Shown here piece by piece: positions 32,019 through 64,000 of a stretch of 64,000 bases of DNA (its first letter is position 1; each line of letters starts with the position of its first letter). The notes below the pieces were generated by a model. The model worked only from the letters and a program-made list of their open reading frames with translations, was not told the DNA's origin and made no database searches. The position numbers and the translations under genes are program-made. The stretch lies in NCBI GenBank assembly GCA_029974035.1, contig JARKQG010000122.1, positions 1 to 64,000 of the forward strand. The letters run 5' to 3'. Source of the DNA: Eubacteriales bacterium (lineage in GTDB: Bacteria > Bacillota_A > Clostridia > Christensenellales > Aristaeellaceae).

Positions 32019-32022
32019 GCCG

Positions 32023-45103: not shown

Positions 45104-45121
45104 CTTGGGAGGCTGAATTCC

Positions 45122-47168: not shown

Positions 47169-47174
47169 CCGCAG

Positions 47175-47215: not shown

Positions 47216-47249
47216 TTCCATGCGGCGAATCGAGTAGGAGGGATACGCG

Positions 47250-47756: not shown

Positions 47757-49038
47757 GTTTCTGATCGCCACCGCCCTTTTGATCTTTCTGATCCTGGTGG
47801 GCATGCCCATCGCCTTTTCGATCGGCGGCACCACGCTGCTCTATATCCTGATGACAAACCCCATCAACGTGGCCGCGATCCCGCTCAGGATGTTCTCCGG
47901 CGTCAACTCGTTCACGCTGATGGCGCTGCCGCTTTTCATGCTGGCGGCGGAGATCATGATCGCCTCCAAGATTTCCACAAAGCTGTTTGACTTCGTGCGG
48001 CTGGGCGTGGGCAAGTACCGGGGCGGCCTGGCCTACGTAAACATCCTGGCCAGCACCATCATGGGCAGCCTGTCCGGCGCGGCGCTTTCCGACATCGCGG
48101 GCATGGGCCAGGTGGAGATCGAGGCCATGAAGGAGGACGGCTATGAATCGTCCTTCGCCTGCGCGGTCACCGCGGGGTCGTCCATCCAGAGCCCGCTGAT
48201 CCCGCCCAGCAACATCGCCATCCTCTACGCCGGCGTCATGTCCCTGTCGGTGGGCGCGGTGCTGTACGCGGGCTTTGTGCCCGGCATCCTGATCGCGCTG
48301 GCGCAGATGACCTACATCAAGCTCAACGCCAAGAAGCTCAACCTGCCCAAGCACGAGAAGATCTACACCAAGGCGGAGCGGCGCGACTACATCACCAACG
48401 GCCTCATCGCCATGATCATGCCGGTCATCATCCTGCTGAGCATCACCCTGGGGCTGAGCACACCCACCGAGGCGGCGGGGCTGGCGGTGCTTTACGCGCT
48501 GGTCATCGGCCTGGTGGTGTTCCGCAACATCGACTTCGCGAAGCTGACCCGCGCGCTTTGGACCACCGCGCAGAACGCGGGAAACCTGTTTCTGATCATC
48601 GCGCTGTCCTCGGTATTCGCCTGGGCCATCGGCATCGAAAAGATTCCCGACCACCTGTCGGCCATGCTGATGAACGTCACCGACAACCCCTACGTGCTGC
48701 TTCTGATCGTCAACTTCATCCTCATCATCGTGGGCATGTGGATGGAAACGGGCGCGGCCATCATGCTCTTTGCGCCGATCCTGGCGCCCATCGCCTACAA
48801 GATGGGCATCGAACCGGTGCACTTCGCCGTGGTCATGCTGGTCAACCTGACCGTGGGGCTCATCACCCCGCCGGTGGGCGTGGTGCTCTACGCCACCGCC
48901 GCCGTGGGCAAGGAGAAGTTTGAAAACGTGGTGAAGGCCACCATGCCCTTTATCGTCATCGGCTTTGTGGTGGTGGCCGTCGTCACCTTTATTCCGGAAC
49001 TGGTGCTGTTCATACCGCGGCTGCTGGGCTTTGTCTGA
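47749..49038 (+). CDS. TRAP transporter large permease (DctM family)
   Basis: A 429-residue ion-transporter-superfamily permease with about 12 transmembrane helices that couples sodium or proton flow to substrate entry. GSLSGAALSDIAGMGQVEI (about 105) and SIQSPLIPPSNIAILYA (about 145) are the conserved re-entrant loop regions. The C-terminal NLTVGLITPPVGVVLY is also diagnostic. ATG 47749 overlaps dctQ. A terminator follows. Confidence 0.94.
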   Translation: MFEFLIATALLIFLILVGMPIAFSIGGTTLLYILMTNPINVAAIPLRMFSGVNSFTLMALPLFMLAAEIMIASKISTKLFDFVRLGVGKYRGGLAYVNILASTIMGSLSGAALSDIAGMGQVEIEAMKEDGYESSFACAVTAGSSIQSPLIPPSNIAILYAGVMSLSVGAVLYAGFVPGILIALAQMTYIKLNAKKLNLPKHEKIYTKAERRDYITNGLIAMIMPVIILLSITLGLSTPTEAAGLAVLYALVIGLVVFRNIDFAKLTRALWTTAQNAGNLFLIIALSSVFAWAIGIEKIPDHLSAMLMNVTDNPYVLLLIVNFILIIVGMWMETGAAIMLFAPILAPIAYKMGIEPVHFAVVMLVNLTVGLITPPVGVVLYATAAVGKEKFENVVKATMPFIVIGFVVVAVVTFIPELVLFIPRLLGFV

Positions 49039-49063
49039 CGGCGCGGGCGATCCGAAAAAAATG

Positions 49064-49100
49064 GCCGGGCGCTTCCGATGTTCGGAAGCGCCCGGCTTTG
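49064..49100. terminator. Bidirectional terminator after the TRAP operon
   Basis: GCCGGGCGCTTCCGA (49064-49078), loop TGT, the exact complement (49082-49096), then TTT. An A-run (49055-49061) lies before the stem, giving a T-run for the opposite strand. The 167 bases from 49101 to the GntR gene hold nothing that I recognise. Confidence 0.75.
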
Positions 49101-49267
49101 CCGCGGGACGGCCTGGTAGTCCACGAAGCCTGAGAACCGATGATAGGGCGCAGAGATTTTTCTGCCCGGCACGGAGCCGGAGCGCAGGCGCAGGAGCGCT
49201 GCGTCAAGCGGAGAGCGCCCCAGCCTGTCAGGGAAAGATCCAGCCATGGCGCGGAAATCAGGTTTCG

Positions 49268-49975
49268 CTAGTCCCGCTTCATGGTGAGCTCGGCCATGTC
49301 GTTGCTGGCGGTGCGCAGGTGGTCGCGCATGGTGCGGGCGGCCGCCCGGACGTCGTGGGCGCGCAGCTGCCGGAGGATCTCCTGGTGGGGCCCGTAGGTG
49401 TTTTTGTGCAGCGAAGGCAGCCGCATGATGGCGTAGCGAAAGACCATCATCTGCTTTTGGATGTAGTCGTTGATCTCGATCATGAAGCGGTTGTGGGTTT
49501 CCGCAAAGAGCACATGGTGAAATTCCTGATCCAGCTCGGCCAGGCGGCGGAAGTTTTCGGCGTTGCCCATCAGGGAGGCGAATTCCTCGATGTTGCGCGC
49601 GAGGACGGCCAGCGCGCGGTCGCTGATGGTGGCCGCGATGGACTCGACGGCGTGGACCTCGAGGCACGCGCGCACGTCCACCAGGTCCATGTAGCGCACC
49701 TTCTGCTCGTCAAACCAGCGCATGCCCATATCGCCGTCGCCGGCGACGAGGGGGCTGGAGACGAAGGCGCCGCGCCCGGGCTTGATGGTGACGTAGCCGC
49801 GCGCCTGCAAAACCCGGTAGGCCTCGCGCAGCGACGAGCGGGCCACGCCCAACCGGTTGCAAAGCTCGTACTCGGTGGGGAGCTTGCTGTCAAAGCCCAG
49901 CCCCTCCGTGCGGATCAAATCGAGGATGCGCTCGACGATCTGGTTTACCACCGACGCGTGCTTGATTGGTTCCAT
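49268..49975 (-). CDS. GntR-family regulator with FCD ligand domain
   Basis: A 235-residue FadR-subfamily repressor. The winged helix is at the N-terminus (LPTEYELCNRLGVARSSLREA, then YVTIKPGRGAFV). An all-helical FCD domain follows (about 90-225). Its metal and ligand residues are suggested by ELDQEFHH, GPHQEIL and MRDHLR. FCD regulators usually sense organic or sugar acids. ATG 49975 follows AGAGGA. A site like those at the divergent dapA promoters lies at its own promoter, so it probably regulates itself and the hydroxy-acid/TRAP operons. Confidence 0.9.
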   Translation of the reverse strand: MEPIKHASVVNQIVERILDLIRTEGLGFDSKLPTEYELCNRLGVARSSLREAYRVLQARGYVTIKPGRGAFVSSPLVAGDGDMGMRWFDEQKVRYMDLVDVRACLEVHAVESIAATISDRALAVLARNIEEFASLMGNAENFRRLAELDQEFHHVLFAETHNRFMIEINDYIQKQMMVFRYAIMRLPSLHKNTYGPHQEILRQLRAHDVRAAARTMRDHLRTASNDMAELTMKRD

Positions 49976-50151: not shown

Positions 50152-51402
50152 CTAGGCGACGATGGTGAACACCTTGTCCAGAAAGTAGTTGGCGATGCCC
50201 ATGGCGTCGCCGGAGGGGCCGGAGCGCGTAAAGTCGATGGTGACGTTGCGCATCAGCATGCGGCCGCCGTTTTCCTCGGGGAAGGAGCGCAGCTTGCGGA
50301 GGAACGCGCTGCCCAGGCATTCGATGCCGCCGCCGATCACGATGCGCTTGATGCCGGTGAGGCAGATGGCGCTGTAGATGCCGCGGAACAGCTTTTCGGC
50401 GATATCGTCCAGCACGGCGGAGACGGCCGGGTGGCCTTTTTCGTAGGCGTTGCCGATCCACTCCAGCGTCAGCGGTTCGGTACGCTCGCCCTCGGGCAGG
50501 ACGCCGCGCACCTCGCCGATGATGGTGTCCACGTTGACGTACTGCTCCAGGCAGCCCCGGTTGCCGCACACGCAGCGCCGGCCCCGGGCGTTGATGGTCA
50601 CGTGGCCGATCTCGCCCGCGGTTTCCTCCGCGCCCAGAAACAGGTCCCCGCCGCAGAGGATGCCCGCGCCGACGCCGTCCCGGACGTAGATGTACATCAG
50701 GTCCGCCACATCCGCGCCCAGCGCGTCCAGCGCCTTTTTTTCCGCGTAGGCGTGGGCCATGGAGGAATTGCCAAAGAACATGGGCACGTTGATTTCGCGC
50801 TCCAGCTGCGCCATCACCGCGCGGGAGAACGATACGTGCAGCGCCGACAGCGAGTAGGCGTCCTTCTCCTGCACGAAGATGCCGGGCGAGACCACGCAAA
50901 GGGCGATCGCCCGGGCCGGGTCAAACAGGCGGGACTGGGAAAGGGCGTTGCGGATCAGCGCCGCGTAATCGCCTCCGGTGTCCGGGTTTCCGTCGGATTC
51001 GGTGTCCTCAAACCCGCCGTACTGGTCGGAGGCGTGGGGGACAAAAAGCTCCTCCATCGGCCGGATGTCCAGGTCGTACAGCGAAAGGCGCGCGCCCCAG
51101 CGGTTCAGCGAAATCACCGGAAGCTGGCGGCTCTCCGGGCGGACGCGCAGGTTGATGGGCTTGCGGCCGATGCTGTCCGTCTTGGCGGGCCCGGTTTCGA
51201 CGATCAGGCCCATCCGCACCAGCTCGTCCACCAGCGCTGAAACCGTCGCGGTGCTCAGCCCGGTCGAGCGGGAGAGCTGCACCCGGGTCATCTCGCGTCT
51301 GCGGTGCAGATCCAGAAAGATGCGCTTCATATTTTCTTCCTTGATCGCCAACTGGGCCGGCGGCTTTTCGCCGCTCATCAGACCGCCCGGTAGATACTTC
51401 AT
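50152..51402 (-). CDS. ROK-family transcriptional repressor
   Basis: A 416-residue NagC/XylR-like repressor. A winged helix lies at about 25-75 (MTRVQLSRSTGLSTATVSALVDEL). The sugar-kinase-fold ROK domain follows, with the signature GAEETAGEIGHVTI (about 240) and the zinc motif CVCGNRGCLEQY (about 265). ATG 51402 gives the normal N-terminal lead, though the GAGAGGA ribosome site is 13 bases away. It is divergent from the NagB-like gene at 51654 and very likely represses that operon in the absence of its sugar inducer. Confidence 0.88.
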   Translation of the reverse strand: MKYLPGGLMSGEKPPAQLAIKEENMKRIFLDLHRRREMTRVQLSRSTGLSTATVSALVDELVRMGLIVETGPAKTDSIGRKPINLRVRPESRQLPVISLNRWGARLSLYDLDIRPMEELFVPHASDQYGGFEDTESDGNPDTGGDYAALIRNALSQSRLFDPARAIALCVVSPGIFVQEKDAYSLSALHVSFSRAVMAQLEREINVPMFFGNSSMAHAYAEKKALDALGADVADLMYIYVRDGVGAGILCGGDLFLGAEETAGEIGHVTINARGRRCVCGNRGCLEQYVNVDTIIGEVRGVLPEGERTEPLTLEWIGNAYEKGHPAVSAVLDDIAEKLFRGIYSAICLTGIKRIVIGGGIECLGSAFLRKLRSFPEENGGRMLMRNVTIDFTRSGPSGDAMGIANYFLDKVFTIVA

Positions 51403-51554: not shown

Positions 51555-51583
51555 TTGACAAGCGCGCCGGATGGTGCCATAAT
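51555..51583 (+). promoter_or_regulatory. Promoter of the NagB-like/dual-ABC operon
   Basis: TTGACA (51555-51560), 17 bases and CATAAT (51578-51583), about 70 bases before the NagB-like start. Confidence 0.75.
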
Positions 51584-51653: not shown

Positions 51654-52604
51654 ATGGACATGGTATCCACGCTCAGGGGCTCCTATTTTGAAGAGGTGTT
51701 CCCGAAGGGATGGGACATCGAGCGCATCAAGTCCTGCGTCTCCAATCCGCCGGAGCGCTATGCCGAGGCGCAGCCCTTCTGGAACGAGGGTTTTAAGCCC
51801 GTCGTGTGCGAAAGCGCGGAGGCGTTTGGCGCGTATATGGGCCACGAGATGGCGATGCAGATCCGGCTGACGAAGGAGGCGGGGCGCAAGCTCATCATGA
51901 TCCTCCCGGTGGGGCCGATGGGCATGTATAAGTGGACGGTATATTTCCTTCGGGAATGGAATGTCGATTGCGCCCACGTACATACCTTTAATATGGATGA
52001 ATGGAGCGACGAAACCGGCAGCACGCTGCCGGCGCAGGACCCGGCCGCGTTCCAGAACGCGATGATCGAGGCATTTTTCAAGCCCCTGGGCGCGCTGACG
52101 GTGCCGGAGAGCCAGCGCAACTTCGCCACAAAGGACAACCTGCCCACCTACGCCGGCAAGATCGCCGCGCTCAAGGCCGAGGGCGCCCGGCAGGTATTGG
52201 TCTACGGCATCGGCCGCATGTGCCACATCGCGTTCTGGGAACCCCACTTCGCGCTGGAGTACGCCTCCGACGAGGAATGGAAAAAGGCCACCCACCGCCT
52301 GGGCGCGCGGCTGCACCCCTTCACCATCGAACAGAACGCCATCACCAGCTTCCGCAGCGCGTGGCCGCTGATCCCGTGTTACGCCAACACCGTGGGCCCG
52401 GCGCTTCTGTTTTCATCGGATTACGCCATCGGCGGCGCCGACGGCGTGTTTGACCGCGGCATGCAGTGGCAGGGCATGAGCTTCTGGATGACGCTGCGCT
52501 ACGGCCCGACCCGCTTCGTGACCTCCAGCTACATCCCCACGCTGCCCGGAAAGCTCTTCTTCCTCCGGGCGCTGGCCGGCCCCCTCTGCGCCGACACCAA
52601 CTGA
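51654..52604 (+). CDS. NagB-like sugar-phosphate deaminase/isomerase homologue with altered active site
   Basis: A 316-residue protein of the NagB/RpiA fold. HTFNMDEWSDE (about 111-121) corresponds to the FNMDEY loop of glucosamine-6-phosphate deaminase. YGIGRMCHIAFWEP (about 183-196) aligns with the NagB catalytic loop GxGxDGHIAFNEP. The catalytic Asp is replaced by Met and the following Gly by Cys, while His and Glu are kept. It is longer than NagB (about 266) and may carry out a different isomerase, deaminase or hydrolase reaction. ATG 51654 lies behind GGGGGG. It is the first gene of the operon divergent from the ROK repressor. Confidence 0.72.
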   Translation: MDMVSTLRGSYFEEVFPKGWDIERIKSCVSNPPERYAEAQPFWNEGFKPVVCESAEAFGAYMGHEMAMQIRLTKEAGRKLIMILPVGPMGMYKWTVYFLREWNVDCAHVHTFNMDEWSDETGSTLPAQDPAAFQNAMIEAFFKPLGALTVPESQRNFATKDNLPTYAGKIAALKAEGARQVLVYGIGRMCHIAFWEPHFALEYASDEEWKKATHRLGARLHPFTIEQNAITSFRSAWPLIPCYANTVGPALLFSSDYAIGGADGVFDRGMQWQGMSFWMTLRYGPTRFVTSSYIPTLPGKLFFLRALAGPLCADTN

Positions 52605-52638
52605 CATTTCAACCGCCTGTGGAAAGGATGAGGCGTCC

Positions 52639-54132
52639 GTGAGTGAACAGCGTCCCGCCCTTTTGGAAATGAGAGGCATCACCAAGGCGTTCCCGGGCGT
52701 ACTGGCGCTCAACAAAGTCGATCTCGCCATCCGCGCGGGCACCGTGCTCGCGCTGGTGGGGGAGAACGGCGCGGGAAAGTCCACGCTGATGAAGGTCCTC
52801 TCCGGTGTGTACCGGATGGACGAGGGGCAGATCTTCCTGGACGGCAAGCCCGTCGAGGTCGAAAGCCCCCTCGCCTCTCAGCACCTGGGCATCTCCATTA
52901 TCTATCAGGAATTCAACCTTCTCAACAATATGTCCGTGGCTGAAAACATCTTTGTGGGCCGCGAGCCGAAAACCCGCGCCGGGTTTGTGGACAAGCGCGC
53001 CCAGCGCGCCGAGGCGCGCAGGCTGCTCGAAGAAGTGGGCCTTGCCATTGACCCGGACACCCGGGTGCAAAGGCTGTCCACCGCCCAAAAGCAGATGATC
53101 GAGGTGGCCAAGGCGCTCTCCTTCAACGCGCGCATCATCATCATGGACGAGCCCACCTCCTCGCTGACCGACCGCGAGACGGACACGCTTCTGGGCATCA
53201 TCCGCAAGCTGCGGGACAGGGGCGTGGCGATCGTATTCATCTCCCACAGAATGAACGAAATCTTCGAGATCTCCGATGAGATCGCCGTCATGCGCGACGG
53301 GGAAATGATGGAAAAGATGGCCACCGGCCAGGTCACCGAGCAGGATGTGATCGCCGCCATGGTGGGCCGGGAGGTCAGGAACCTCTTCGTGAAGGAGACC
53401 GTGCCCATCGGCCCCGTGGCGCTGGAAGTCAAGAACCTTTCCACCCGGAACTTCCTGTCGGACATCTCCTTTTCCGTGCATTCCGGCGAGATCCTGGGGT
53501 TTGCGGGCCTGGTGGGCGCGGGGCGCAGCGAGGTCATGCGGGCGCTCGTGGGCATTGACCCGCGGGAGGCGGGCGAGATCCTTGTGGACGGCCGCAGGGT
53601 GGCCATCCGCTCCACGGTGGACGCGCTTCGGTGCGGCATCGGCTTTGTGCCGGAGGACCGCAAGGAGCAGGGCCTGGTGCTGGGCATGTCCGTCAAGCGC
53701 AACGTGACGCTGGCGGCGCTGAAAAAGGTGGCCCGGGGCTGGCTGATCGACCGCGGCTCGGAGGACCGCCTGACGGACCGGTACATTGAATCGCTGCGCG
53801 TCAAGACCCCTTCCCGCGAGCAGCGGGTGGTCAACCTGTCGGGCGGCAACCAGCAAAAGGTGGTCATCGCCAAATGGATGGCGACGAACCCCAAGATTCT
53901 GATTCTGGACGAGCCCACCCGCGGCATCGACGTGGGCGCGAAGAAGGAAATCCACGCGCTGATGAGCGAACTGGCGGGGCAGGGTGTCGCCATCATTATG
54001 ATCTCTTCGGAACTGCCCGAGATCCTGGGCATGAGCGACCGCATCGTCGTGATGCATGAGGGCAGGATCAAGGGCGTGCTCGACCGCGGGGACGCGAGTC
54101 AGACAGCCATCATGAAGATGGCGGTATCCTAA
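52639..54132 (+). CDS. Ribose-type sugar ABC transporter ATPase, transporter A
   Basis: A 497-residue RbsA-type tandem ABC protein. Domain 1 has GENGAGKST (about 41), LSTAQKQM and IIMDEPTSSL. Domain 2 has the degenerate P-loop GLVGAGRSEV, LSGGNQQKVV and ILDEPTRGIDVG. The start is GTG 52639, with AAGGATGAGG upstream. It follows the NagB-like gene by 34 bases and precedes its permease by 17. Confidence 0.92.
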   Translation: MSEQRPALLEMRGITKAFPGVLALNKVDLAIRAGTVLALVGENGAGKSTLMKVLSGVYRMDEGQIFLDGKPVEVESPLASQHLGISIIYQEFNLLNNMSVAENIFVGREPKTRAGFVDKRAQRAEARRLLEEVGLAIDPDTRVQRLSTAQKQMIEVAKALSFNARIIIMDEPTSSLTDRETDTLLGIIRKLRDRGVAIVFISHRMNEIFEISDEIAVMRDGEMMEKMATGQVTEQDVIAAMVGREVRNLFVKETVPIGPVALEVKNLSTRNFLSDISFSVHSGEILGFAGLVGAGRSEVMRALVGIDPREAGEILVDGRRVAIRSTVDALRCGIGFVPEDRKEQGLVLGMSVKRNVTLAALKKVARGWLIDRGSEDRLTDRYIESLRVKTPSREQRVVNLSGGNQQKVVIAKWMATNPKILILDEPTRGIDVGAKKEIHALMSELAGQGVAIIMISSELPEILGMSDRIVVMHEGRIKGVLDRGDASQTAIMKMAVS

Positions 54133-54149
54133 CGGGAGGGTGGAAGGAC

Positions 54150-55112
54150 ATGACGCAAAAGGCGAGTCTTAATCCGGGCAAAAAGCTGGTCAAGCAGTCC
54201 TCGACGGTCTCGATTTTTCTGATTCTGGTGGTGATGTGCGCGATCATGGCGGCCGTGTCGCCCGCGTTCATCAAGATCACCAACATCCTCTCCACCGCGC
54301 GCTCGTTTTCCGCCATTGCCGTCGCCGGCATCGGCGTCAGCATGATCATCATCACCGGCGGCATCGACCTTTCCATCGGCTCGGCCTACGGCCTGGCGGG
54401 CGTGATCGCGGCCATGATGGTGGTGTCCGGCGCGCCGCTGCCGCTGGGCATCGCCGGGGGCGTCCTGATGGGCGCCGTGGTGGGCCTGGTCAACGGCCTG
54501 ATGGTGGTGTACCTCAAGCTGCCGCCCTTTATCGCCACCATGGGCACCATGCAGATTGCCCGCGGCGTCTGCTACATTCTCACCCAGGGGTATCCCGTGA
54601 CCGGCCTGCCGACGGAGTTCACCGTGCTGGGCCAGGGCTACATTCTGGGCATCCCGGTGCCGATCTGGATCATGGTGCTGATGGCGGCGGTGTTCGCGGT
54701 GTTTCTCAACATGACCACCACCGGCCGCAGGATCTTCGCGCTGGGCGGCAACGAGGAGGCCACCCGCATTTCGGGCATCAACACGCGGCGGCTGAAGGTG
54801 CTGGTGTACACGCTGGGCGCGGCGCTGGCCGGCGTGGCGGGCATCATCACCGCCTCTAAGCTGGGCGTGGGGCAGCCCACCGCCGGCATCGGCTTTGAGA
54901 TGGACGCCATCGCGGCGGTGGTCATCGGCGGCGCGTCGCTCTCCGGCGGCGAGGGCACCGTCACCGGCACCATCATCGGCGCGGCGATCATCGGCGTACT
55001 GCGAAACGCGCTGGTGCTGCTCTCCGTCGATTCCTACTGGCAGACGCTGATCATCGGCTGCGTGATCATCCTGGCCGTCACCATCGATCAGCTGCGCAAA
55101 GGGAGGAAGTGA
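54150..55112 (+). CDS. Ribose-type sugar ABC transporter permease, transporter A
   Basis: A 320-residue RbsC-type permease with 8-10 transmembrane helices. MIIITGGIDLSIGSAYG (about 65-81) and FALGGNEEATRISGINTR (about 200) are the family motifs. It works with the ATPase at 52639 and the binding protein at 55166. Confidence 0.92.
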   Translation: MTQKASLNPGKKLVKQSSTVSIFLILVVMCAIMAAVSPAFIKITNILSTARSFSAIAVAGIGVSMIIITGGIDLSIGSAYGLAGVIAAMMVVSGAPLPLGIAGGVLMGAVVGLVNGLMVVYLKLPPFIATMGTMQIARGVCYILTQGYPVTGLPTEFTVLGQGYILGIPVPIWIMVLMAAVFAVFLNMTTTGRRIFALGGNEEATRISGINTRRLKVLVYTLGAALAGVAGIITASKLGVGQPTAGIGFEMDAIAAVVIGGASLSGGEGTVTGTIIGAAIIGVLRNALVLLSVDSYWQTLIIGCVIILAVTIDQLRKGRK

Positions 55113-55165
55113 CCCCGAAACCCCTTCCGGTCAAGGCCGGAGGAGAAGATAAGGAGGATGCAACC

Positions 55166-56143
55166 ATGAGGAGGACCCTATCCATTCTGCTCGCGCTGCT
55201 ACTTGCACTGACCGTGCTTCCCGCCCTGGCCGACGAGGACATCACGATCGTAGGCATCGGCCAACAGCTTGGCAACGTGGTATTCCTCGATGCCGAAAAG
55301 GGCATCAAGGCCGCCGGCGAGGAGCTGGGCATTACCACCCAGTGGCAGTCCCCGCTGCGTGCCGAAGCCGAACTCCAGAACGAGATCATGAACAACCTGA
55401 TCGATCTGGGCGTGGACGGCATCGCCATCTCCTGCACCACCGGCGACGCCCTCAAAGACGTCATCGACCGCGCCATCGCCGCGGGCATCAAGGTGTCCTG
55501 CTACGATGTGGACTCCCCCAACTCTGATCGCCTGTTCTACGCCGGCACCGAAAACTACAAGGCCGGCTACACCTGCGGCGAGTATATCATTGACCTGTTC
55601 AAGGATTCCGGGCTTGAAAAGGTGCGCGTGGCGCAGCTGGAGGGCATCCCCGGCGCCAACGACATCGAGGCCCGCAAGCAGGGCTTTGCCGATGCCATCG
55701 CGGGCACCAACATCGAAGTGGTCTACTCCTACGCCTGCGACGACAACGTGGACCAGGCCATCGAGGGCGTGGAGGCCTACACCCGCGCCGAGGGCGACAA
55801 CATCAACGCCTGGTTCATGGCCGGCGGCTGGCCCTACACCGTGTCGCCCAGCGCCATGCCGGAGACCAACGCCTGGAAGCTGGCGGACCCGGCCCGCAAG
55901 ATCGTGACCGTGGACATCTTTGCCGAAACCACCCCCGCCTTCTTCGAAATGGGCGTTCTGGATGTCGCGGTGGGCCAGAGCTTCTACGAGATGGGCTATC
56001 AGTCCGTCATGAATCTCTACAAGCTGATCAAGGGCGAAACCATCGACGCGCCCTACGACGAGGCCATCGGCGGCCCCTTCATCAACACGGGCGTGCAGGT
56101 TGCCACCATCGACAACTGGAAGGATGTCATTTCCCAGGGCTAA
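55166..56143 (+). CDS. Sugar-binding protein, transporter A
   Basis: A 325-residue RbsB-type binding protein. The signal peptide is residues 1-22, cut at ALADE (type I, no lipobox). The mature protein begins ITIVGIGQQLGN. GVDGIAISCTTGDALKDVI (about 90) and FMAGGWPYTVSP (about 215) line the ligand cleft. ATG 55166 follows AAGGAGG. A stem-loop follows the gene before the enzyme block. Confidence 0.9.
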   Translation: MRRTLSILLALLLALTVLPALADEDITIVGIGQQLGNVVFLDAEKGIKAAGEELGITTQWQSPLRAEAELQNEIMNNLIDLGVDGIAISCTTGDALKDVIDRAIAAGIKVSCYDVDSPNSDRLFYAGTENYKAGYTCGEYIIDLFKDSGLEKVRVAQLEGIPGANDIEARKQGFADAIAGTNIEVVYSYACDDNVDQAIEGVEAYTRAEGDNINAWFMAGGWPYTVSPSAMPETNAWKLADPARKIVTVDIFAETTPAFFEMGVLDVAVGQSFYEMGYQSVMNLYKLIKGETIDAPYDEAIGGPFINTGVQVATIDNWKDVISQG

Positions 56144-56153
56144 CGCGCCGCGC

Positions 56154-56187
56154 CGGCCGCTCTCGCCCTGGGATGGGGGCGGCCGGT
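56154..56187 (+). other. Intercistronic stem-loop after the binding-protein gene
   Basis: CCGGCCGC (56154-56161) pairs with GCGGCCGG (56180-56187), and the loop is partly self-complementary. TTCATTATCTT follows, not a true T-run. Confidence 0.5.
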
Positions 56188-56214
56188 TCATTATCTTAGG
56201 GCGGAGGAAGCGCC

Positions 56215-57219
56215 ATGAAGAGCCTGATCGGCAAAGCCTTTTTCGATACCCGGCTCCAGGACGTGCCGGATCGCCCGGTTTCCGGTCATAGGGTGCGTGT
56301 GCGCGTTCACGCCTGCGGCGTGTGCGGCACGGACCTGCACTTTCTCCGGGACAGCGCCGACTGGATCGCGCTGGGCCACGAGATTGCCGCCGAGGTGGCG
56401 GAGGTCGGCCCGGAGGTCACCCGCGTCCGTCCGGGCGACCGGGTGATCGTTGAGGATGTGACCATGTGCGGCGCCTGCGAGGCCTGCAAAACCGGCCGCT
56501 ACGACCTGTGCCGCAACCCCTACCGGCTGGACGGGCAGGGCGGCATGGCGGACCAGATGGTCGTCCACGAAAACATGCTGAACCGCTTTGAGGGCATCGA
56601 TTGGGTGACCGCGTCCATGACGGAGCCGCTGGCCGTGGCGATCAGCTGTGTGGAAAAGCTGAACCTGCCGCCCATGGGCTCGCTTTTGATCTACGGCATG
56701 GGGGCCATTGGCCTTCTCAGCGCCGCCTACGCCAAGGTGCGCGGCGCGGCGCGGGTGGACATGGTGGCCCGGGACCCGTCGAGCCTGCGCAACGCACGCG
56801 CGGCCGAGGCGGCCCGTGCGCTGGGCGCGGACGGGATCTTCTACACCCAAGGCGGCGGTCCGATGCCCGGCGAAGGGATCTACGACGCCGCCCTGGTGGC
56901 CGCGTCGCCCGCCCTGGCGGCCGACGCGCTGGCGCGCGTGCGGTACGGCGCGAGCGCGCTGGTGGCAGGCATTACCCTTTCCGGGGGCGCCCTTTCCAGC
57001 ATTGATGTCAACCACATGGTCATGAACAAGAAATCGCTGATCACCTCCCTCGCGGAGCCGGCGGTCAACTTTCCGCTGTCGCTCCGGCTGATCGGGCAGG
57101 GCAGGATCGACGTCGCGGCCATCATCACCCACCGGCTGGCGCTTCACGAGGCCGGGCGGCTCGAGGCGCTCTACGGCCGGGACGCGGGCGCGATCAAGAC
57201 GGTCATGCTCTGCGGCTGA
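56215..57219 (+). CDS. Zinc-dependent alcohol dehydrogenase (sorbitol dehydrogenase-like)
   Basis: A 334-residue medium-chain dehydrogenase. The catalytic zinc site is HACGVCGTDLHF (about 32) with GHEIAAEV (about 60). The structural zinc cysteines are CGACEACKTGRYDLC (about 83-97). The NAD domain starts IYGMGAIGLLSA (about 160). ATG 56215 follows GGCGGAGGAAG. It opens the enzyme block between the two ABC transporters and presumably oxidises a hydroxyl of the imported sugar derivative. Confidence 0.9.
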   Translation: MKSLIGKAFFDTRLQDVPDRPVSGHRVRVRVHACGVCGTDLHFLRDSADWIALGHEIAAEVAEVGPEVTRVRPGDRVIVEDVTMCGACEACKTGRYDLCRNPYRLDGQGGMADQMVVHENMLNRFEGIDWVTASMTEPLAVAISCVEKLNLPPMGSLLIYGMGAIGLLSAAYAKVRGAARVDMVARDPSSLRNARAAEAARALGADGIFYTQGGGPMPGEGIYDAALVAASPALAADALARVRYGASALVAGITLSGGALSSIDVNHMVMNKKSLITSLAEPAVNFPLSLRLIGQGRIDVAAIITHRLALHEAGRLEALYGRDAGAIKTVMLCG

Positions 57220-57267
57220 GCCCGGAAAACACTTCTTTGTTTGAATTCATCCGCGAGGTGAATGTGC

Positions 57268-58281
57268 ATGGACAAAAAGCGTCGGCCCGACTTTTCCAAT
57301 CTGGCGGCGGTGCTGGAGCGCCGCGCGCCCGGCCGCCCCACGCTGTTCGAGTACTTTCTGAACGAGCGGCTCTACACCCGCTTCAGCGGCATCGAGGAGC
57401 GCGCCGCCTCCGGCCACTACGCCGCCTCCGCGCGGCTGGCCAGAGCCTTCATGGCCGCGGGCTACGATTACGTGACGCTCTCCTGCCCCTGGGTCTTTCC
57501 CTCGTCCCAGCCGGACGAACTGCTCTCGTCGCGCTCGCTCAATCACCCGGCGGTGATCGCGGACCGCGCGTCCTTTGACCGCTACCCGTGGCCGGATCTC
57601 GCCGGCATGGACTTTTCCTACGTGGACCGCCTGGCGGAGGAATTGCCCGGCGGCATGGGCATCGTGATGGCCGCGCCCGACGGCATTCTGGAAACGGCCA
57701 CCGCCCTCATCGGATATGACAACCTGTGTTTGATGTTCTACGATGATGAAGAACTCATAGGGGATATCTTTGCGCGCATCGGGGACATCATTCTTTCTTT
57801 CTATAAAAAAGCGCTGACGCTGAAGGGCGTGCGGGCGATTCTGTGCAACGACGACTGGGGCTTCCATTCGCAGACGCTGATCGCGCCCGCGCAGCTGAGG
57901 ACGTACGTATTCCCCTGGTACAAAGAATGCTGCCGCCTGGCCCACGCCGGCGGGCAGTACGCCATTCTCCATTCCTGCGGCGCGTACCGGGAGATTCTCG
58001 AGGACATCGTCGGCATGGGCTTTGACGCGCGCCACTCCTACGAGGACAAGATCGTGCCGGTGGAGGAGGCGTACCGCGAGTACGCCGGGCGCATCGCGGT
58101 GCTGGGCGGCATCGACGTGGACTATCTTTGCCGGAAAACCCCGGAGGAAATCCGGGCCCGGGCGGAGAATCTCTTATCACTCACGGGAAGCAGGGGCTAC
58201 GCGCTGGGTTCCGGAAACTCGATCCCCGCCTATGTGCCGGACGAGAACTACCTGGCGATGACCGGCGCCGCCCTGGGCTAA
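57268..58281 (+). CDS. Uroporphyrinogen decarboxylase-fold protein (UroD/MtaA-like)
   Basis: A 337-residue TIM-barrel protein of the URO-D superfamily, which includes corrinoid methyltransferases such as MtaA. It is not a haem-pathway enzyme by context. LHSCGAYREIL (about 230) keeps the HxCG zinc pair of the methyltransferase branch. Near the C-terminus, LGSGNSIPAYVPDENYLAM lacks the third zinc cysteine found in MtaA (PGCxL). ATG 57268 is better spaced from GAGGTG than the in-frame ATG at 57262. Its substrate is unknown. The cobalamin operon in the same window makes a methyl-transfer role conceivable. Confidence 0.78.
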   Translation: MDKKRRPDFSNLAAVLERRAPGRPTLFEYFLNERLYTRFSGIEERAASGHYAASARLARAFMAAGYDYVTLSCPWVFPSSQPDELLSSRSLNHPAVIADRASFDRYPWPDLAGMDFSYVDRLAEELPGGMGIVMAAPDGILETATALIGYDNLCLMFYDDEELIGDIFARIGDIILSFYKKALTLKGVRAILCNDDWGFHSQTLIAPAQLRTYVFPWYKECCRLAHAGGQYAILHSCGAYREILEDIVGMGFDARHSYEDKIVPVEEAYREYAGRIAVLGGIDVDYLCRKTPEEIRARAENLLSLTGSRGYALGSGNSIPAYVPDENYLAMTGAALG

Positions 58282-58303
58282 CACACGCAACGGAGGGATG
58301 CAC

Positions 58304-59647
58304 ATGGAATCCTTTATGACCAAGGCGGCCAAGGTGGACACAATCCTCGCCCGCGCGCCCAAGATGGACAAGGCGCTGCGCGTCGAGAAGGCGGAATTTC
58401 TCGCCCGGCAGAAGACCGTGATGGACGGCCTCGCGAAGCTGGGCGCGGACTGCGGCATCGTCTATTCCGACGAACACTACTGCGGCGATGTGCCCTACCT
58501 GGGGGGCTGCACCAACCTTTCCATCGAACCCATTGCCGGCATTTTGGGGCCCGGGGGCTTCCACATTCTGGCGGGGCTCGAGGGCGGCTATGTGGCGGAG
58601 CAGCTGGGCTACCGCTCCGGCGCGGCCATCCACAAGGTGGAGATGCTCAAGCTGGCGGACGAGGAGTACCCCATCGACGCCGAGCGCGTGGAGGATGTGC
58701 TCGTCCAGGCGGTGGGGCGCATGCCCAAAACCATCGGCCTTCTCACCCCGCGGGAGGTGCTGCCCGTCAGCGTGTACGAGTACTTCTGCGGCCTGGTGGG
58801 CGAGGAGAACGTGGTGGACTGCCAGGAGGTCTACTTCAAGGCCAAGTACGAAAAGTCCGACCGGGAGATCGAGCTCACCCGGCAGGCCGCCTGGATCGCC
58901 GACGCGATGATCGAGGGCATGCTGGCGGTGCTGGAACCCGGCATGCTGGAAACGCAGGTGTCCCAGTGGGGCTACCTGATCGGCCAGGCGCTGGGGTCCG
59001 AGGGCTTTGGCTTTGACGTGATGGTGACCAGCGGCGAGGCCAACCGCACGCTGATCGGCAAGGCGCTCAACCGGGTCATTCAGGAGGGCGACTACGTGCA
59101 CCTGGGCGTCGCGCCCAAGTGCGACGGGCTGACCGCCTGCGAGCGCTGCACCGTGGTCGCCACGCTGGACCCGGCCCGGATCACGGAGGATCAGAAGTAC
59201 TGGATTGACTTTGTGGAGGGCGCCTACCACGTGGGGCTCGAGGCCTACCGCCGCGTCGCCTGGGAAAACCTGCCCGCCCGGTTCCAGGAGCAGGCGCTGG
59301 TGAGCTACTTCAAAAACCGCGAGGAGGCCGTGTGCCAGCGGCTGGGCAAAAAGATTGACCTCACGCGCCAGAAGCCCTACACCGGCACCCACAACGGCGG
59401 CTACACCGAGTGCCAGGAGTTTTACGGCGCCATTACGCTGGCGAGCGACGAGCCGCTGGGCGTCCAGATCGTCACCATGCTGGACGTGGCCATCCGCGGC
59501 ATCGGCAACCATTGGAACGACGTGGTCATCCCGGGGCTGGACTACGTGCTGGTGGAAAAGACGCTGGCCAAGATGGGCGCGGAAGTGGAAGTGCTCAACC
59601 GCCTGCCGGTCAACCTGCAGCACATGGTGGGCCGCGTGGTCTACTGA
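58304..59647 (+). CDS. M24-fold (creatinase/Xaa-Pro peptidase-like) protein without metal ligands
   Basis: A 447-residue pita-bread-fold protein. The N-terminal domain (1 to about 190) resembles creatinase/prolidase N-domains. The C-terminal domain should carry five metal ligands in a peptidase. Here the first Asp position reads HLGV instead of DLG, and the second lies in TACERC, very like the TALER of creatinase. The usual active-site His region reads SGEANRTLIGKA, without His. It is thus closer to the metal-free creatinase type, which hydrolyses a C-N bond, but lacks some of that enzyme's residues. ATG 58304 follows GGAGGG. A non-peptidase C-N hydrolase is plausible. Confidence 0.75.
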   Translation: MESFMTKAAKVDTILARAPKMDKALRVEKAEFLARQKTVMDGLAKLGADCGIVYSDEHYCGDVPYLGGCTNLSIEPIAGILGPGGFHILAGLEGGYVAEQLGYRSGAAIHKVEMLKLADEEYPIDAERVEDVLVQAVGRMPKTIGLLTPREVLPVSVYEYFCGLVGEENVVDCQEVYFKAKYEKSDREIELTRQAAWIADAMIEGMLAVLEPGMLETQVSQWGYLIGQALGSEGFGFDVMVTSGEANRTLIGKALNRVIQEGDYVHLGVAPKCDGLTACERCTVVATLDPARITEDQKYWIDFVEGAYHVGLEAYRRVAWENLPARFQEQALVSYFKNREEAVCQRLGKKIDLTRQKPYTGTHNGGYTECQEFYGAITLASDEPLGVQIVTMLDVAIRGIGNHWNDVVIPGLDYVLVEKTLAKMGAEVEVLNRLPVNLQHMVGRVVY

Positions 59648-59676
59648 CAACACCAAGGAAGGAGATCGTTTGGGAC

Positions 59677-60384
59677 ATGAAGGTATTGGGAATTGGATGT
59701 CATCCGGATGATTTGGAGATCGCGTGCTACGGCACCCTGGCGAAGTACGTGAAGCTGGGCCATGAGGTCGCGGTATGCCACATCGCCAACGGGAATCTGG
59801 GCCATGTCCAGATCATGCCGGAAGAGCTCAGGGAGATCCGCTGGAAGGAGGCGGACGACGCGGCCAGGGTGATCGGCGCCGCGCACTACGCCATCGACAT
59901 TCCCGACCTCTATGTCACGGCCGAGAATGATGAACTGGTCCGGAAACTGGCCGGGGTGATCCGGGACGTGCAGCCGGATCTGATCATCACCCACAACGAC
60001 CATGACTACATGAACGACCACATGCAGGCCTATCAGGCGACGCTGCGCGCCTCCTTCGGCGCCAGCATTCCCCACTACGACATGGCGTCCGGCAAGGCGG
60101 TCGCGGGCGTGACCCCGATCTACCACATGGACACCGTGGCGGGCACCGGCTTTATCCCCACCGAGTACGTGGACATCTCCGACGTCATTGACCTCAAGCT
60201 GGAGGCGCTTTCCTGCCACGAGAGCCAGATCCGCTGGATGCTGGAGCACGACCACATCGACTTTCTGGAGTTCACCCGCACCTGCTCCCGCGTGCGGGGC
60301 TTCCAATCCGGCGTGGACTATGCGGAGGGCTTCCGTCCCAACCACAACTACCTGCGCATGACCACGAAACGGCTTTTGCCCTGA
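59677..60384 (+). CDS. PIG-L family deacetylase
   Basis: A 235-residue LmbE/PIG-L-type zinc deacetylase. GCHPDDLEIACYGT (residues 7-20) holds the His-Pro-Asp-Asp zinc and catalytic residues. THNDHDYMNDH (about 108-118) provides the third zinc His. The family removes N-acetyl groups from GlcNAc-containing sugars and similar molecules. ATG 59677 gives a normal N-terminus, with GGAG 12 bases upstream. Placed next to a NagB-like gene and sugar importers, it suggests that the imported compound is N-acetylated. Confidence 0.88.
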   Translation: MKVLGIGCHPDDLEIACYGTLAKYVKLGHEVAVCHIANGNLGHVQIMPEELREIRWKEADDAARVIGAAHYAIDIPDLYVTAENDELVRKLAGVIRDVQPDLIITHNDHDYMNDHMQAYQATLRASFGASIPHYDMASGKAVAGVTPIYHMDTVAGTGFIPTEYVDISDVIDLKLEALSCHESQIRWMLEHDHIDFLEFTRTCSRVRGFQSGVDYAEGFRPNHNYLRMTTKRLLP

Positions 60385-60409
60385 TGAAATCCGGGAAGGA
60401 GAAACGAGT

Positions 60410-61396
60410 ATGAACGACATTGCCCTTGAGCGGAACGATTCCATCGGCGCGAAGCTCTCCAGATTCACCAAGGAATACGCCATCGTGGTCGCGATCGTGC
60501 TTCTGATGATCATCTTCACGCTGACGTCGCCCTACTTTCTCACCTACAGCAACCTGCGCAACATCCTGGCGCAGACGGTGCCCATCGCCGTGGTGTGCAT
60601 CGGCCAGGCGCTGATCGTCACCACCGGGGAATTTGACCTGTCGCTGGGCCAGAACGTGTGCCTTACCTCCTGCGTGATGGCGTACCTGATCAAGTTCGCG
60701 GGCTTCAACCCGTGGATCGCGATCTTCTGCGCGATTTTGGTGGGCACGGCGGTGGGCATGTCAAACGGCGTACTGATCGCCTACGCGCGCATCCCCTGCT
60801 TCATCGTGACGCTGGGCTTCCAGATGATCGCCAAGGGCCTTTCCAAGATCATCACCAACGCCTCGCCGATTCCCGGCATGCCCAAGGAGATCCAGTTCAT
60901 CGGCCGCGGCTTCATCGGCGGCACGGCCTGGGGCGTGCCTGTCAGCGTGGTAATCATGCTGGCGCTGTACCTGCTGTTCATGTTCCTCACCCAGAAGACC
61001 AAGTTCGGTCGCAGCCTCTACGCGATGGGCGGCAGCCAGGAAGCCGCCTACTTCGCGGGCATCGACGTGAAGATGTACCGCATGCTGGTATACACCATTG
61101 CGGGGCTTCTGTGCGGCGTCAGCAGCGTGATTCTGGTCACCCGGCTGGACAGCGCGGCCCTCACCAACGGCAACCTCTACGAGTTCGACGCGATGATCTC
61201 CTGCATCCTGGGCGGCATCAGCCTGGCCGGCGGCCGCGGCAAGATTATCCAGGCGCTGTTCGGCGCGATCTTCCTGATGCTGTTCTTCAACGGCATGACC
61301 ATGCTCAACGTCAACCCCTTCGTGCAGGACGTGCTCAAGGGCGTGGTCATGATCGGCGCGGTGGCGCTGGACGTGATCCGCAACCGGACCAAATAG
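60410..61396 (+). CDS. Ribose-type sugar ABC transporter permease, transporter B
   Basis: A 328-residue RbsC-type permease with 8-10 transmembrane helices. LIVTTGEFDLSLGQNVCL (about 67-84) replaces the commoner GGIDLSIG motif. YAMGGSQEAAYFAGIDVK lies near 205. It precedes its ATPase, the reverse of the order in transporter A. Confidence 0.92.
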   Translation: MNDIALERNDSIGAKLSRFTKEYAIVVAIVLLMIIFTLTSPYFLTYSNLRNILAQTVPIAVVCIGQALIVTTGEFDLSLGQNVCLTSCVMAYLIKFAGFNPWIAIFCAILVGTAVGMSNGVLIAYARIPCFIVTLGFQMIAKGLSKIITNASPIPGMPKEIQFIGRGFIGGTAWGVPVSVVIMLALYLLFMFLTQKTKFGRSLYAMGGSQEAAYFAGIDVKMYRMLVYTIAGLLCGVSSVILVTRLDSAALTNGNLYEFDAMISCILGGISLAGGRGKIIQALFGAIFLMLFFNGMTMLNVNPFVQDVLKGVVMIGAVALDVIRNRTK

Positions 61397-61417
61397 GCGC
61401 GTAGGGAGGCGTTATCC

Positions 61418-62896
61418 TTGGGCGATATCATTCTGGAACTGAAAAACATCTCCAAGAGCTTCCCGGGCGTCAAGGCGCTGGACGACGTGTCCTTCGCCAT
61501 TGAGCGCGGCACCGTGCACGCGCTGGTGGGCGAAAACGGCGCGGGCAAGTCCACGCTGATCAAGATTCTGGCGGGCATCTACCACCCGGAGGCGGGCGAG
61601 GTGCTGCTGGACGGAAAGCTCGAAACGTTCAAGGCCCCCATCGATTCCCAGATGAAGGGCATCAGCGTCGTCCACCAGGAGCTGAAGCTCTCCGAAACGC
61701 TGACGGTGGCCGAAAACGTGTTCCTGGGGAACCTCTTGTACAAAAACCACCTGGTGGATTGGAAGGGCATGCGCCTGCGCGCGGCGGAGCTATTGCGCAA
61801 GCTGGGCATTCCGCTGGACGTCAACGCGCCGGTTTCCGCCCTGTCCGTGGCGCAAAAACAGATGGTGGAGATCTGCAAGGCCATCAACCGCAACTGCAAA
61901 GTGCTGATCATGGACGAGCCCTCCGCCACGCTGACCGACAAGGAGCAGACCATCATGTTCCAGACGGTCCGGCAGCTGCGCAGCCAGGGCGTGACCATCA
62001 TCTACATCTCCCACCGGATGGAGGAGATCTTTGACCTGGCCGACAACGTGACCGTGCTCCGGGACGGGCACCACATCGCGACGGTGCCGGTATCCACCGT
62101 GGACCGCACGAAGCTGGTGTCCATGATGGTGGGCCGCGAGGTCAAGACGGAATACCCGCGCTCGGGCGTCGAGCCGGGGCCGGTGGTACTGGAGGCCCGG
62201 GACATCCGGCGCAAGAACGTGCTCAAGGGCATCAGCTTCACGCTGCGCCGGGGCGAAATTCTGGGCATCGCGGGGCTGGTGGGCGCCGGGCGCACCGAGC
62301 TGGTGCGGGCCGTGCTGGGCATTGACAGGCCCGATTCCGGCGAGGTGCTGCTGGAGGGCAAGCCCGTCAAAATCCAGAGCTTCCGCCAGGCCATCGCCAA
62401 GGGGCTGGGCCTGGTGCCGGAGGACCGCAAAAAGCAGGGCCTGGTGCAGATTGCCACCGTGCAGAACAACATCTGCATGGTCAACATGGACTCGGTGTCC
62501 CGCCGGGGCGTGATGGACAGAAAGCTCGAGCGGCGCTTCAGCCGCGAGTACGTGGAAAAGCTCAAAATCTCCACGCCTTCCATTACCACCGAAACCCAGT
62601 ACCTCTCCGGCGGCAACCAGCAGAAGGTGGTCATCGCCAAGTGGCTTCTGGCCAACAGTCAGATCATCGTGCTGGACGAGCCCACCCGGGGCATTGACGT
62701 GGGCGCCAAGAGCGAAATCTACAACCTCATCACCCGTCTGGTGCGCGAGGGCAAGTCGGTGATCATGATCTCGTCGGAGCTGCCCGAGGTGGTGGGCATG
62801 AGCGACCGAATTCTCGTCATCCACGAGGGCCGCGAAGTTGGCATGATGAACCGCGAGGAAGCCTCCCAGGAGGCCATCATGGCGCTTTGCGTGTAG
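61418..62896 (+). CDS. Ribose-type sugar ABC transporter ATPase, transporter B
   Basis: A 492-residue tandem ABC protein. Domain 1 has GENGAGKST (about 36), LSVAQKQM and IMDEPSATL. Domain 2 has GLVGAGRTEL, LSGGNQQKVV and VLDEPTRGIDVG. The start is TTG 61418, eight bases after GGGAGG. It closely parallels the 52639 protein, as expected for paralogous importers. Confidence 0.92.
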   Translation: MGDIILELKNISKSFPGVKALDDVSFAIERGTVHALVGENGAGKSTLIKILAGIYHPEAGEVLLDGKLETFKAPIDSQMKGISVVHQELKLSETLTVAENVFLGNLLYKNHLVDWKGMRLRAAELLRKLGIPLDVNAPVSALSVAQKQMVEICKAINRNCKVLIMDEPSATLTDKEQTIMFQTVRQLRSQGVTIIYISHRMEEIFDLADNVTVLRDGHHIATVPVSTVDRTKLVSMMVGREVKTEYPRSGVEPGPVVLEARDIRRKNVLKGISFTLRRGEILGIAGLVGAGRTELVRAVLGIDRPDSGEVLLEGKPVKIQSFRQAIAKGLGLVPEDRKKQGLVQIATVQNNICMVNMDSVSRRGVMDRKLERRFSREYVEKLKISTPSITTETQYLSGGNQQKVVIAKWLLANSQIIVLDEPTRGIDVGAKSEIYNLITRLVREGKSVIMISSELPEVVGMSDRILVIHEGREVGMMNREEASQEAIMALCV

Positions 62897-62955
62897 CCCC
62901 CCCACACGCGACCCCGCCGCGCGGACGCGGCAAACTATATTGGGAGGTAGGATCC

Positions 62956-63927
62956 ATGAAGCTCAGGAAACTGGTATCCCTCTTTCTGGTGCTGATCCTG
63001 GCGCTGGGCGTCTTCTCCGTCGCCCTGGCCGACTCCGGCGACAAGCCCTGGGCGGGCAAGAAGCTGGGTGTGGCGCACATCACCATGTACGACGAGTGGT
63101 GCAAGGCCGTCTACGACGAGTTCATGGCGCAGGCCCCCGAGATGGGCTTTGGCGAGATCAACATCCAGGACGGCAACCTGAACGCCGAAACCCAGCAAAA
63201 GCAGGTGGAGGACTTCATCACCCAGGGCTACGACGCCATCCTGATCGATCCGGTCAACTCCGACGGCATCGTGCCCGCCCTGGAGCAGGCCGGCGCCGCC
63301 AACATCCCGGTGTTTGCCTTTGACAGCGGCTCCAGCTACGACAAGCTGGTCACCCACGTCGCCTGGGACCATGCCCAGACCGGCGTGCTGACGGCCGAGT
63401 GGATCGCCGACTACGCCAAGGAAAACCTGGACGGCAAAGTCCGGATCGGCGTGCTGGCGATGCTCAACGCCGTGCACACCAAGGTTCGCTCCGAGGCGTT
63501 TGTGGCCAAGCTGGAGGAGCTCATGGGCGCCGAGAACATCGAGTGGGTGTTCAACCAGGACTTCGGCGAAACCCGTGAATCCGCCGCCAACATCGTCACC
63601 AACAACATCGCCAAGCCCATCGACGTGATCTGGGGCGCGGTGGACAACGCCGCCCAGGGCGCCGTGACCGCGCTGGAGCTGGCCGGCAACACCGGCACCA
63701 TCGTGGTGTCCGCGGGCGCGTGGGGCGCCGAGCCGTTCAACATGATCAACGAGGGCAACCCCTACTACAAGATGTGCGTGGGCGTGTCTCCCGCCAACAT
63801 CGTCAAGCTGTCGCTGGAATCCGTGCAGGCCTACTTCGAGGGCAAGGAAGTGCCCAAGACCCAGAATATCGAGCTGTCCGTCATCGACGGCAGCAACATT
63901 GCGGACTACATGAAGTACGTCGGCTAA
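62956..63927 (+). CDS. Sugar-binding protein, transporter B
   Basis: A 323-residue RbsB-type binding protein. The signal peptide is residues 1-26, cut at ALADS (type I, no lipobox). The mature part has VAHITMYDEWCKAVYDEF, DPVNSDGIVPAL (about 100) and DSGSSYDKLVTHV in the ligand cleft. ATG 62956 follows GGGAGG. It has diverged from the 55166 protein, so the two transporters probably take different but related ligands. Confidence 0.9.
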   Translation: MKLRKLVSLFLVLILALGVFSVALADSGDKPWAGKKLGVAHITMYDEWCKAVYDEFMAQAPEMGFGEINIQDGNLNAETQQKQVEDFITQGYDAILIDPVNSDGIVPALEQAGAANIPVFAFDSGSSYDKLVTHVAWDHAQTGVLTAEWIADYAKENLDGKVRIGVLAMLNAVHTKVRSEAFVAKLEELMGAENIEWVFNQDFGETRESAANIVTNNIAKPIDVIWGAVDNAAQGAVTALELAGNTGTIVVSAGAWGAEPFNMINEGNPYYKMCVGVSPANIVKLSLESVQAYFEGKEVPKTQNIELSVIDGSNIADYMKYVG

Positions 63928-63939
63928 TGACTTTCGCAG

Positions 63940-63966
63940 GGGGCGGCGGCCGGGTGCCGCCGCCCC
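63940..63966 (+). other. Stem-loop after the last binding-protein gene
   Basis: GGGGCGGCGGC (63940-63950), loop CGGGT, GCCGCCGCCCC (63956-63966). It is a perfect 11-base stem with no T-tract, 12 bases after the stop codon and before a further start codon. Confidence 0.7.
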
Positions 63967-63995
63967 ATTGCGCGTGAAAACGGAGGTATGCGATC

Positions 63996-64000
63996 ATGAG
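63996..64000 (+). CDS. Start of a further gene, cut by the window edge
   Basis: ATG at 63996 follows GGAGG (63982-63986) at normal spacing. Only two codons are visible, so the product is unknown. It suggests the operon continues past the window. Confidence 0.45.

Follow-up and report, generated by a model that had tools for sequence, protein, structure and literature searches.

A gene run, probably ROK-regulated, encoding two CUT2 importers, a PIG-L protein and a NagB-like protein without the phosphate-binding loop

Gene content and proposed function

The 64,000-nucleotide stretch of contig JARKQG010000122.1 analysed here (the window) ends in a run of eleven plus-strand genes (51654–63927), all present as long open reading frames (ORFs), and a gene for a ROK-family regulator lies divergently on the minus strand (Table 1). 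The run encodes, in this order, a NagB-like protein, a CUT2-type ATP-binding cassette (ABC) importer (importer 1), a zinc-dependent dehydrogenase, a UroD-like protein, a creatinase/prolidase-fold protein of the M24 family (M24a), a PIG-L protein and a second CUT2 importer (importer 2). The gene content and linkage are directly observed, as are the loss of the phosphate site and the retention of the catalytic residues in the NagB-like protein. We put at about even the chance that these genes form a ROK-regulated operon through which an N-acetylated amino-sugar compound, probably an amide-type conjugate, is taken up and degraded. N-acetyl amino-sugar catabolism is the best interpretation because genes for PIG-L and NagB-like proteins co-occur in two phyla and because one related locus (L117) also encodes a true NagB and a weakly matching kinase-like protein.

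In the pathway whose reactions, order and substrate we infer, the two CUT2 importers would import the compound, whole or in pieces, and M24a, together with a second M24 protein (M24b) probably encoded beyond the window edge, would cut an amide- or amidine-type bond, freeing the amino sugar. The PIG-L protein would take off the N-acetyl group, the zinc-dependent dehydrogenase would oxidize a hydroxyl group where needed, and the NagB-like enzyme would carry out a NagB-type isomerization/deamination on a sugar without phosphate. Phosphorylation would come last, by a kinase that may be of the PfkB type in some sister operons. More tentatively, and on balance somewhat improbably, the NagB-like proteins may represent an ancient branch of the NagB superfamily, as yet without a name, that acts on unphosphorylated amino sugars directly after de-N-acetylation by PIG-L, by deamination or isomerization, and so serves a phosphate-last amino-sugar route in clostridia and Chloroflexi, with a new Cys/His/Asp/Glu active site in the M24 proteins freeing the sugar from an amide conjugate.

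A previous sequence-only reading of this DNA had named these genes and the divergent ROK gene, and all were recovered as ORFs; the families named were supported by Pfam, apart from the NagB-like protein, which has no Pfam hit. Its proposal of N-acetyl amino-sugar catabolism is supported as far as the linkage of the PIG-L, NagB-like and M24 genes is concerned; the part assigned to the UroD-like protein is not. Ten of the 12 proteins were scanned with Pfam and NCBIfam, and the permease and ATPase of importer 2 were placed by BLASTP clustering. Importer 1 shows the features of a CUT2 system (double ATPase, BPD_transp_2 and Peripla_BP_4) by Pfam, and importer 2 shows them by Pfam for its binding protein and by clustering for the other components. 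The ROK protein scored 116.4 bits with the NCBIfam NagC equivalog model, below the cut-off of 650 bits.

The NagB-like protein

The NCBIfam nagB score of the NagB-like protein is 44.6 bits, a value that the copy in locus L041 also reaches, against a cut-off of 236.9 bits. The NagB fold is present, and the Asp, His and Glu residues that we take to be catalytic are conserved in 34, 34 and 33 of the 34 NagB-like proteins aligned, respectively, whereas the PTG[S/G]TP loop and the Arg and Lys residues, presumably the phosphate-binding elements, occur in none of the 34 but in all three true NagB copies aligned. Compared with NagB glucosamine-6-phosphate deaminase, the protein carries an N-terminal extension of ~45 residues and a phosphate loop shorter by two residues, the Arg is replaced by Ser and the Lys is lost; the fold and the catalytic residues are common to both. 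These features suggest that the NagB-like enzyme is built for sugars without phosphate. The previous reading had noted that NagC-type ROK proteins, deacetylases and NagB belong to N-acetylglucosamine (GlcNAc) catabolism; with its phosphate site missing, the protein found here is not an ordinary NagB.

Pfam has no name for this large family. The best 120 hits, besides the window's own protein, fall in clusters with 72–90% identity, none of which has a Pfam domain, and the few named hits are labelled glucosamine-6-phosphate deaminase or isomerase, 6-phosphogluconolactonase or hypothetical protein. If the enzyme does work without phosphate, the existing deaminase, isomerase and phosphogluconolactonase names are incorrect, and a single enzyme assay could test for an amino-sugar route in uncultured bacteria.

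Co-occurrence and sister operons

Other genomes contain parts of the same gene set, and the grouping is therefore not due to chance. Among the 297 genomes in the order of G001 (the clostridial genome of locus L001, Candidatus Pullichristensenella), a NagB-like gene was found in 15, a PIG-L gene in 13 and both in 12, and 12 of the 17 PIG-L copies have a NagB-like gene no more than 5 kb away. The Chloroflexi class of G006 (the genome of locus L010; 199 genomes) contains NagB-like genes in 12 genomes and long PIG-L genes in 12, with both in nine; NagB-like genes of at least 60% identity and M24a genes are each present in five genomes and together in four. As the genomes compared are related, p-values overstate their independence. 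G001 and G006 had been picked for holding M24a, and the NagB-like/PIG-L tests were repeated without both. The co-occurrence of NagB-like, PIG-L and M24a genes, proposed beforehand as a check, was borne out, and the NagB-like/PIG-L pair was found in two phyla.

In 20 regions containing NagB-like genes, the neighbours within 6 kb include genes for PIG-L (10 regions), Gfo/Idh (9), PfkB (4), ROK (4), M24b (2) and zinc-dependent dehydrogenase (1) proteins. The ATPases are nearest to ATPase 1 in nine regions and to ATPase 2 in three, although a few with ~30% identity may belong to other transporters. These regions should not be counted as 20 independent events (L041 overlaps with L125, and L081–L105 overlap with L106–L124); gene calls in loci other than the window come from a home-made ORF picker, and many loci are truncated where their contig ends.

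In both L117 and L118, the genes for an importer, PIG-L, the NagB-like protein and Gfo/Idh lie in this order and are followed by genes for proteins of 337, 279 and 237 amino acids. In L117, the first of these three is a weak match to NagK, i.e. N-acetylglucosamine-kinase-like (53.3 bits; cut-off, 370), the second is an epimerase-type protein (66.3 bits; cut-off, 200), and the third is a true NagB, scoring 248.7 bits and thus above the cut-off of 236.9; genes with the true NagB loop were also recognized by eye in L113 and L120. Locus L109 joins in a single run genes for the dehydrogenase, the NagB-like protein, PIG-L, an ArgE/DapE-like M20 protein (below cut-offs), M24b and importer 2. Among the Chloroflexi, the NagB-like, IolE-like, M24a and PIG-L genes are consecutive in L010; PIG-L adjoins the NagB-like gene in L137, with PfkB close by; L140 and L142 contain two NagB-like genes with Gfo/Idh and ROK genes and, on the opposite strand, M20 and M24b genes; and L143 combines a NagB-like gene with a shorter PIG-L gene. 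The content of the sister operons fits an amide-bearing N-acetyl amino-sugar compound. Locus L120 (genome G039) contains two near-identical NagB-like/PIG-L blocks in tandem, ~11.7 kb apart.

M24 and PIG-L proteins

M24a has the pita-bread fold (Pfam M24, 38.9 bits; gathering threshold, 23), but the canonical M24 metal ligands, i.e. the first and second Asp, are not retained. In all 77 sequences aligned, the first metal Asp is Gly270 and the position of what we take to be the usual M24 catalytic His is Ile or Val; the second metal Asp aligns to Cys281 or, by another alignment, to Glu282, which is not conserved. Cys281, His365, Cys372, Asp396 and Glu420 are invariant in the same 77 sequences, and four of them (Cys281, His365, Asp396 and Glu420) may together coordinate a single metal. 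Six M24b copies have Ser, Thr or Gln at the first Asp and Asn or Thr at the second, with the His kept, and the copy in L003 scores 147.7 bits with Pfam M24. Cleavage of an amide-like bond by the M24 proteins is weakly supported. M24a extends to Asgard archaea and has an invariant active site.

An alignment scan for M24a, with one genome per species, gave 138 relatives, for which 80 loci were kept; 78 of them yielded an M24a ORF, and L023 and L036, which did not, were excluded from the 78-locus counts. PIG-L is the same-strand neighbour of M24a (<200 bases) in 24 of the 78 loci, which by record title include members of Clostridia, Chloroflexi, Kiritimatiellae, Acidobacteria, Lentisphaerae and Lokiarchaeota, and it lies somewhere within the retrieved locus in 27. 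These PIG-L partners form a shorter group of 235–248 amino acids, which includes that of the window, and a longer group of 279–302 amino acids. The order M24a, PIG-L, permease 2, ATPase 2 and SBP2 (the binding protein of importer 2), followed by M24b, is kept in L001, L002, L003 and L005. NagB-like genes are present in six of the 80 loci (L003, L004, L005, L010, L020 and L041).

The PIG-L protein, with a Pfam score of 93.6 bits against a gathering threshold of 28.2, contains the CHPDD and NDH motifs, and it scores 118.7 bits with the BshB1 model, below the cut-off of 182.5. Its deacetylase activity is not certain, because one family relative among the matches (5cgz) is named a hydratase.

Two other kinds of neighbours were seen around M24a. 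MttB-type methyltransferase genes, all of a single cluster (Pfam assigns the L059 copy to MTTB), lie near M24a in L006, L049 and L059, and proteins of another single cluster (the L021 copy scanned is DUF4838) are encoded 3' of M24a or of the M24a–PIG-L pair in L010, L021 and L065.

The UroD-like protein

The HSCG motif of the UroD-like protein aligns to HICG of MtaA, so that the HxC zinc pair is kept, but Asn occupies the position of the third Cys of 4ay7. The full set of three zinc ligands of MtaA and CmuA, presumably H, C and C, is therefore lacking, and the genes of the operon include no corrinoid partner. Only one UroD match at 1e-8 (22% identity) was found in the 80 M24a loci. In the order of G001, UroD-like matches occur in nine of the 297 genomes (best identity, 47%), two of which also have a NagB-like gene. 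In close relatives, the UroD-like gene is found on contigs with M24a or NagB-like genes, where contigs were equated only by equal size (13633, 7976, 45233 and 18931). The UroD-like protein had been counted as part of the system; as its gene shows no linkage in the M24a loci or the 297 genomes beyond close relatives, it was rejected as a core enzyme and probably has an accessory role in these relatives.

Alternative interpretations

Several observations weigh against an operon for N-acetylated amino-sugar catabolism. The stretch examined contains neither a kinase gene nor a true NagB gene, the alignment of the NagB-like proteins around the Arg and Lys is gappy, and M24a is rare in the order of G001, where it was found in three of the 297 genomes (78, 46 and 32% identity), with one strong match. 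In the Chloroflexi, the NagB-like and long PIG-L genes are on different contigs in seven of nine genomes (the exceptions are G006 and G424), as are M24a and the NagB-like gene in three of four (G311, G347 and G399). The contigs of these draft genomes leave the distance between the genes open, and the shared presence of the NagB-like gene and its partners is independent of neighbourhood. Furthermore, a terminator-like hairpin (56152–56187) between importer 1 and the dehydrogenase gene may split the run, which may therefore not be a single transcript. The hairpin is weak evidence for a stop because the number of terminator-like sites in the window (11) is near the shuffle mean (8.9).

Several partners, including SBP1 (the binding protein of importer 1), the dehydrogenase and sister-operon proteins, match cyclitol enzymes best, all below cut-offs, which makes a cyclitol substrate the chief alternative. 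According to this explanation, which we consider unlikely, the genes act on an aminocyclitol carrying an N-acetyl group or on a cyclitol glycoside (inosamine/rhizopine type) and form an inositol-like pathway to which a deacetylase has been added. The best NCBIfam matches are scyllo-inosose 3-dehydrogenase IolM for the dehydrogenase (116.9 bits; cut-off, 450) and the rhizopine binding protein for SBP1 (60.4 bits; cut-off, 420), and the Gfo/Idh proteins of L117 and L111 are nearest to IolG and the PfkB protein of L123 to IolC. However, all these scores are far below the cut-offs, L117 encodes a true NagB, and NagB-type enzymes open aldose rings, which cyclitols do not have. Somewhat less probable is the presence of two or more unrelated cassettes, one with the NagB-like gene and importer 1 and another extending from the dehydrogenase through importer 2. 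The hairpin would fit such a division, as would the UroD-like gene, which is unlinked, the NagB-like gene of L001, which is on a different contig from M24a–PIG-L, and L110, where importer 1 alone accompanies a NagB-like gene. On the other hand, the NagB-like gene is found in the same genomes as PIG-L and M24a in two phyla, in part on different contigs, and the single run of L109 joins the dehydrogenase and NagB-like genes to PIG-L, M24b and importer 2.

It is improbable that M24a and PIG-L form a pair like that of ectoine degradation (DoeA/EutD and DoeB/EutE), in which a cyclic amidine would be opened before the product is deacetylated, with a secondary resemblance to sugar catabolism. M24a–PIG-L is the most widespread pair, and both M24b of L003 (92 bits) and M24a (28.5 bits) are nearest to the ectoine hydrolase (DoeA/EutD) equivalog, but far under its cut-off of 575 bits. 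The replacement of the usual catalytic His in 77 of 77 M24a sequences also argues against this pair, which would leave the NagB-like gene without a role, and PIG-L presumably belongs to a different family from EutE. The order of chemistry would be the same, hydrolysis by EutD being followed by deacetylation by EutE (PMC13188858). A standard GlcNAc pathway, in which the glucosamine-6-phosphate deaminase is normal although divergent, would account for a ROK regulator, a deacetylase and a NagB fold occurring together, yet it is very improbable: the phosphate loop, Arg and Lys are missing from 34 of 34 NagB-like proteins, the nagB score is 44.6 rather than 236.9 bits, and a true NagB gene accompanies the NagB-like gene in L117.

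Sequence elements and other features of the window

The features of the gene run are listed in Table 1.

Table 1. Genes and sequence elements at the 3' end of the window
Feature	Position	Strand	Evidence
ROK-family repressor	50152..51399 (end 51561 if upstream start used)	-	Pfam ROK, 109.6 bits; helix-turn-helix
Promoter-like site TTGACA-17-CATAAT	51555..51583	+	11/12 consensus bases
NagB-like enzyme, 316 amino acids, without phosphate loop	51654..52604	+	NCBIfam nagB, 44.6 bits; residue alignment
Importer 1 ATPase, two ABC domains	52639..54132	+	Pfam ABC_tran, 194.2 bits, two stretches
Importer 1 permease	54150..55112	+	Pfam BPD_transp_2, 162.2 bits
Importer 1 binding protein SBP1	55166..56143	+	Pfam Peripla_BP_4, 165.1 bits
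Terminator-like hairpin, possible partial stop	56152..56187	+	14 pairs
Zinc-dependent dehydrogenase	56215..57219	+	Pfam ADH_N, 86.7 bits
UroD-like protein, probably accessory	57262..58281	+	Pfam URO-D, 79.7 bits
M24a, creatinase/prolidase-fold protein, altered metal site	58298..59647	+	Pfam Peptidase_M24, 38.9 bits
PIG-L de-N-acetylase (predicted)	59674..60384 (start 59674 or 59677)	+	Pfam PIG-L, 93.6 bits; HPDD and DH motifs
Importer 2 permease	60410..61396	+	BLASTP cluster with permease 1; 73–80% identity in L001, L002, L003, L005
Importer 2 ATPase	61418..62896	+	BLASTP cluster with ATPase 1; 72–75% identity in L001, L002, L003, L005
Importer 2 binding protein SBP2	62956..63927	+	Pfam Peripla_BP_4, 125.9 bits
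Ribosome-binding-site-like GGAGG and ATG AG, start of next gene, probably M24b	63981..64000	+	Sequence

Six promoter-like sites were found in the window, compared with a shuffle mean of 2.6. The word TTGACAA is common to all five ROK-divergent regions compared, including those of L001 and L002, in which the divergent gene encodes the dehydrogenase. A search of the five regions for a ROK operator revealed no shared word longer than 7 bases, and all shared words are within the promoter box. The last 20 bases of the window contain GGAGG and ATG AG, which probably mark the start of a further gene, and as M24b lies 3' of SBP2 in L001, L002, L003 and L005, the window probably ends just before M24b. 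The gene run thus probably extends beyond the window into this second M24 gene.

Elsewhere in the window, a further sugar-type cluster on the minus strand (20950–27246) encodes the permease, ATPase and binding protein of a CUT2 system, together with two xylose-isomerase-like TIM barrels and a Gfo/Idh protein whose nearest match, below the cut-off, is IolG. Another segment (45101–49975) contains genes for a DapA-family aldolase that exceeds the dapA cut-off, a tripartite ATP-independent periplasmic transporter (DctP and DctM by Pfam, with a DctQ-sized ORF between) and a divergent GntR/FCD regulator. The G+C content is 72% at 32001–40000 and 58–68% in the remaining 4-kb blocks.

Comparison with known systems

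In the titles and abstract openings covered, a set that takes in few subscription papers, we found no description of this gene combination or of phosphate-site loss in a deacetylase-linked NagB branch. Each fold is already known. In M24a, the Gly at the first metal Asp and the Ile or Val at the His position distinguish the protein from creatinase, ectoine hydrolase (EutD/DoeA), prolidase and the dimethylsulfoniopropionate lyase DddP. The PIG-L protein shares its family and the HPDD and DH motifs with the PIG-L/LmbE de-N-acetylases, such as BshB1 and diacetylchitobiose deacetylase, but differs from them in its catabolic context. The gene run resembles the GlcNAc (nag) operons in having a ROK regulator, a deacetylase and a NagB-type enzyme; PIG-L presumably replaces NagA, and an ABC importer the phosphotransferase system, whereas the NagB-like enzyme differs from its nag counterpart in lacking the phosphate site.

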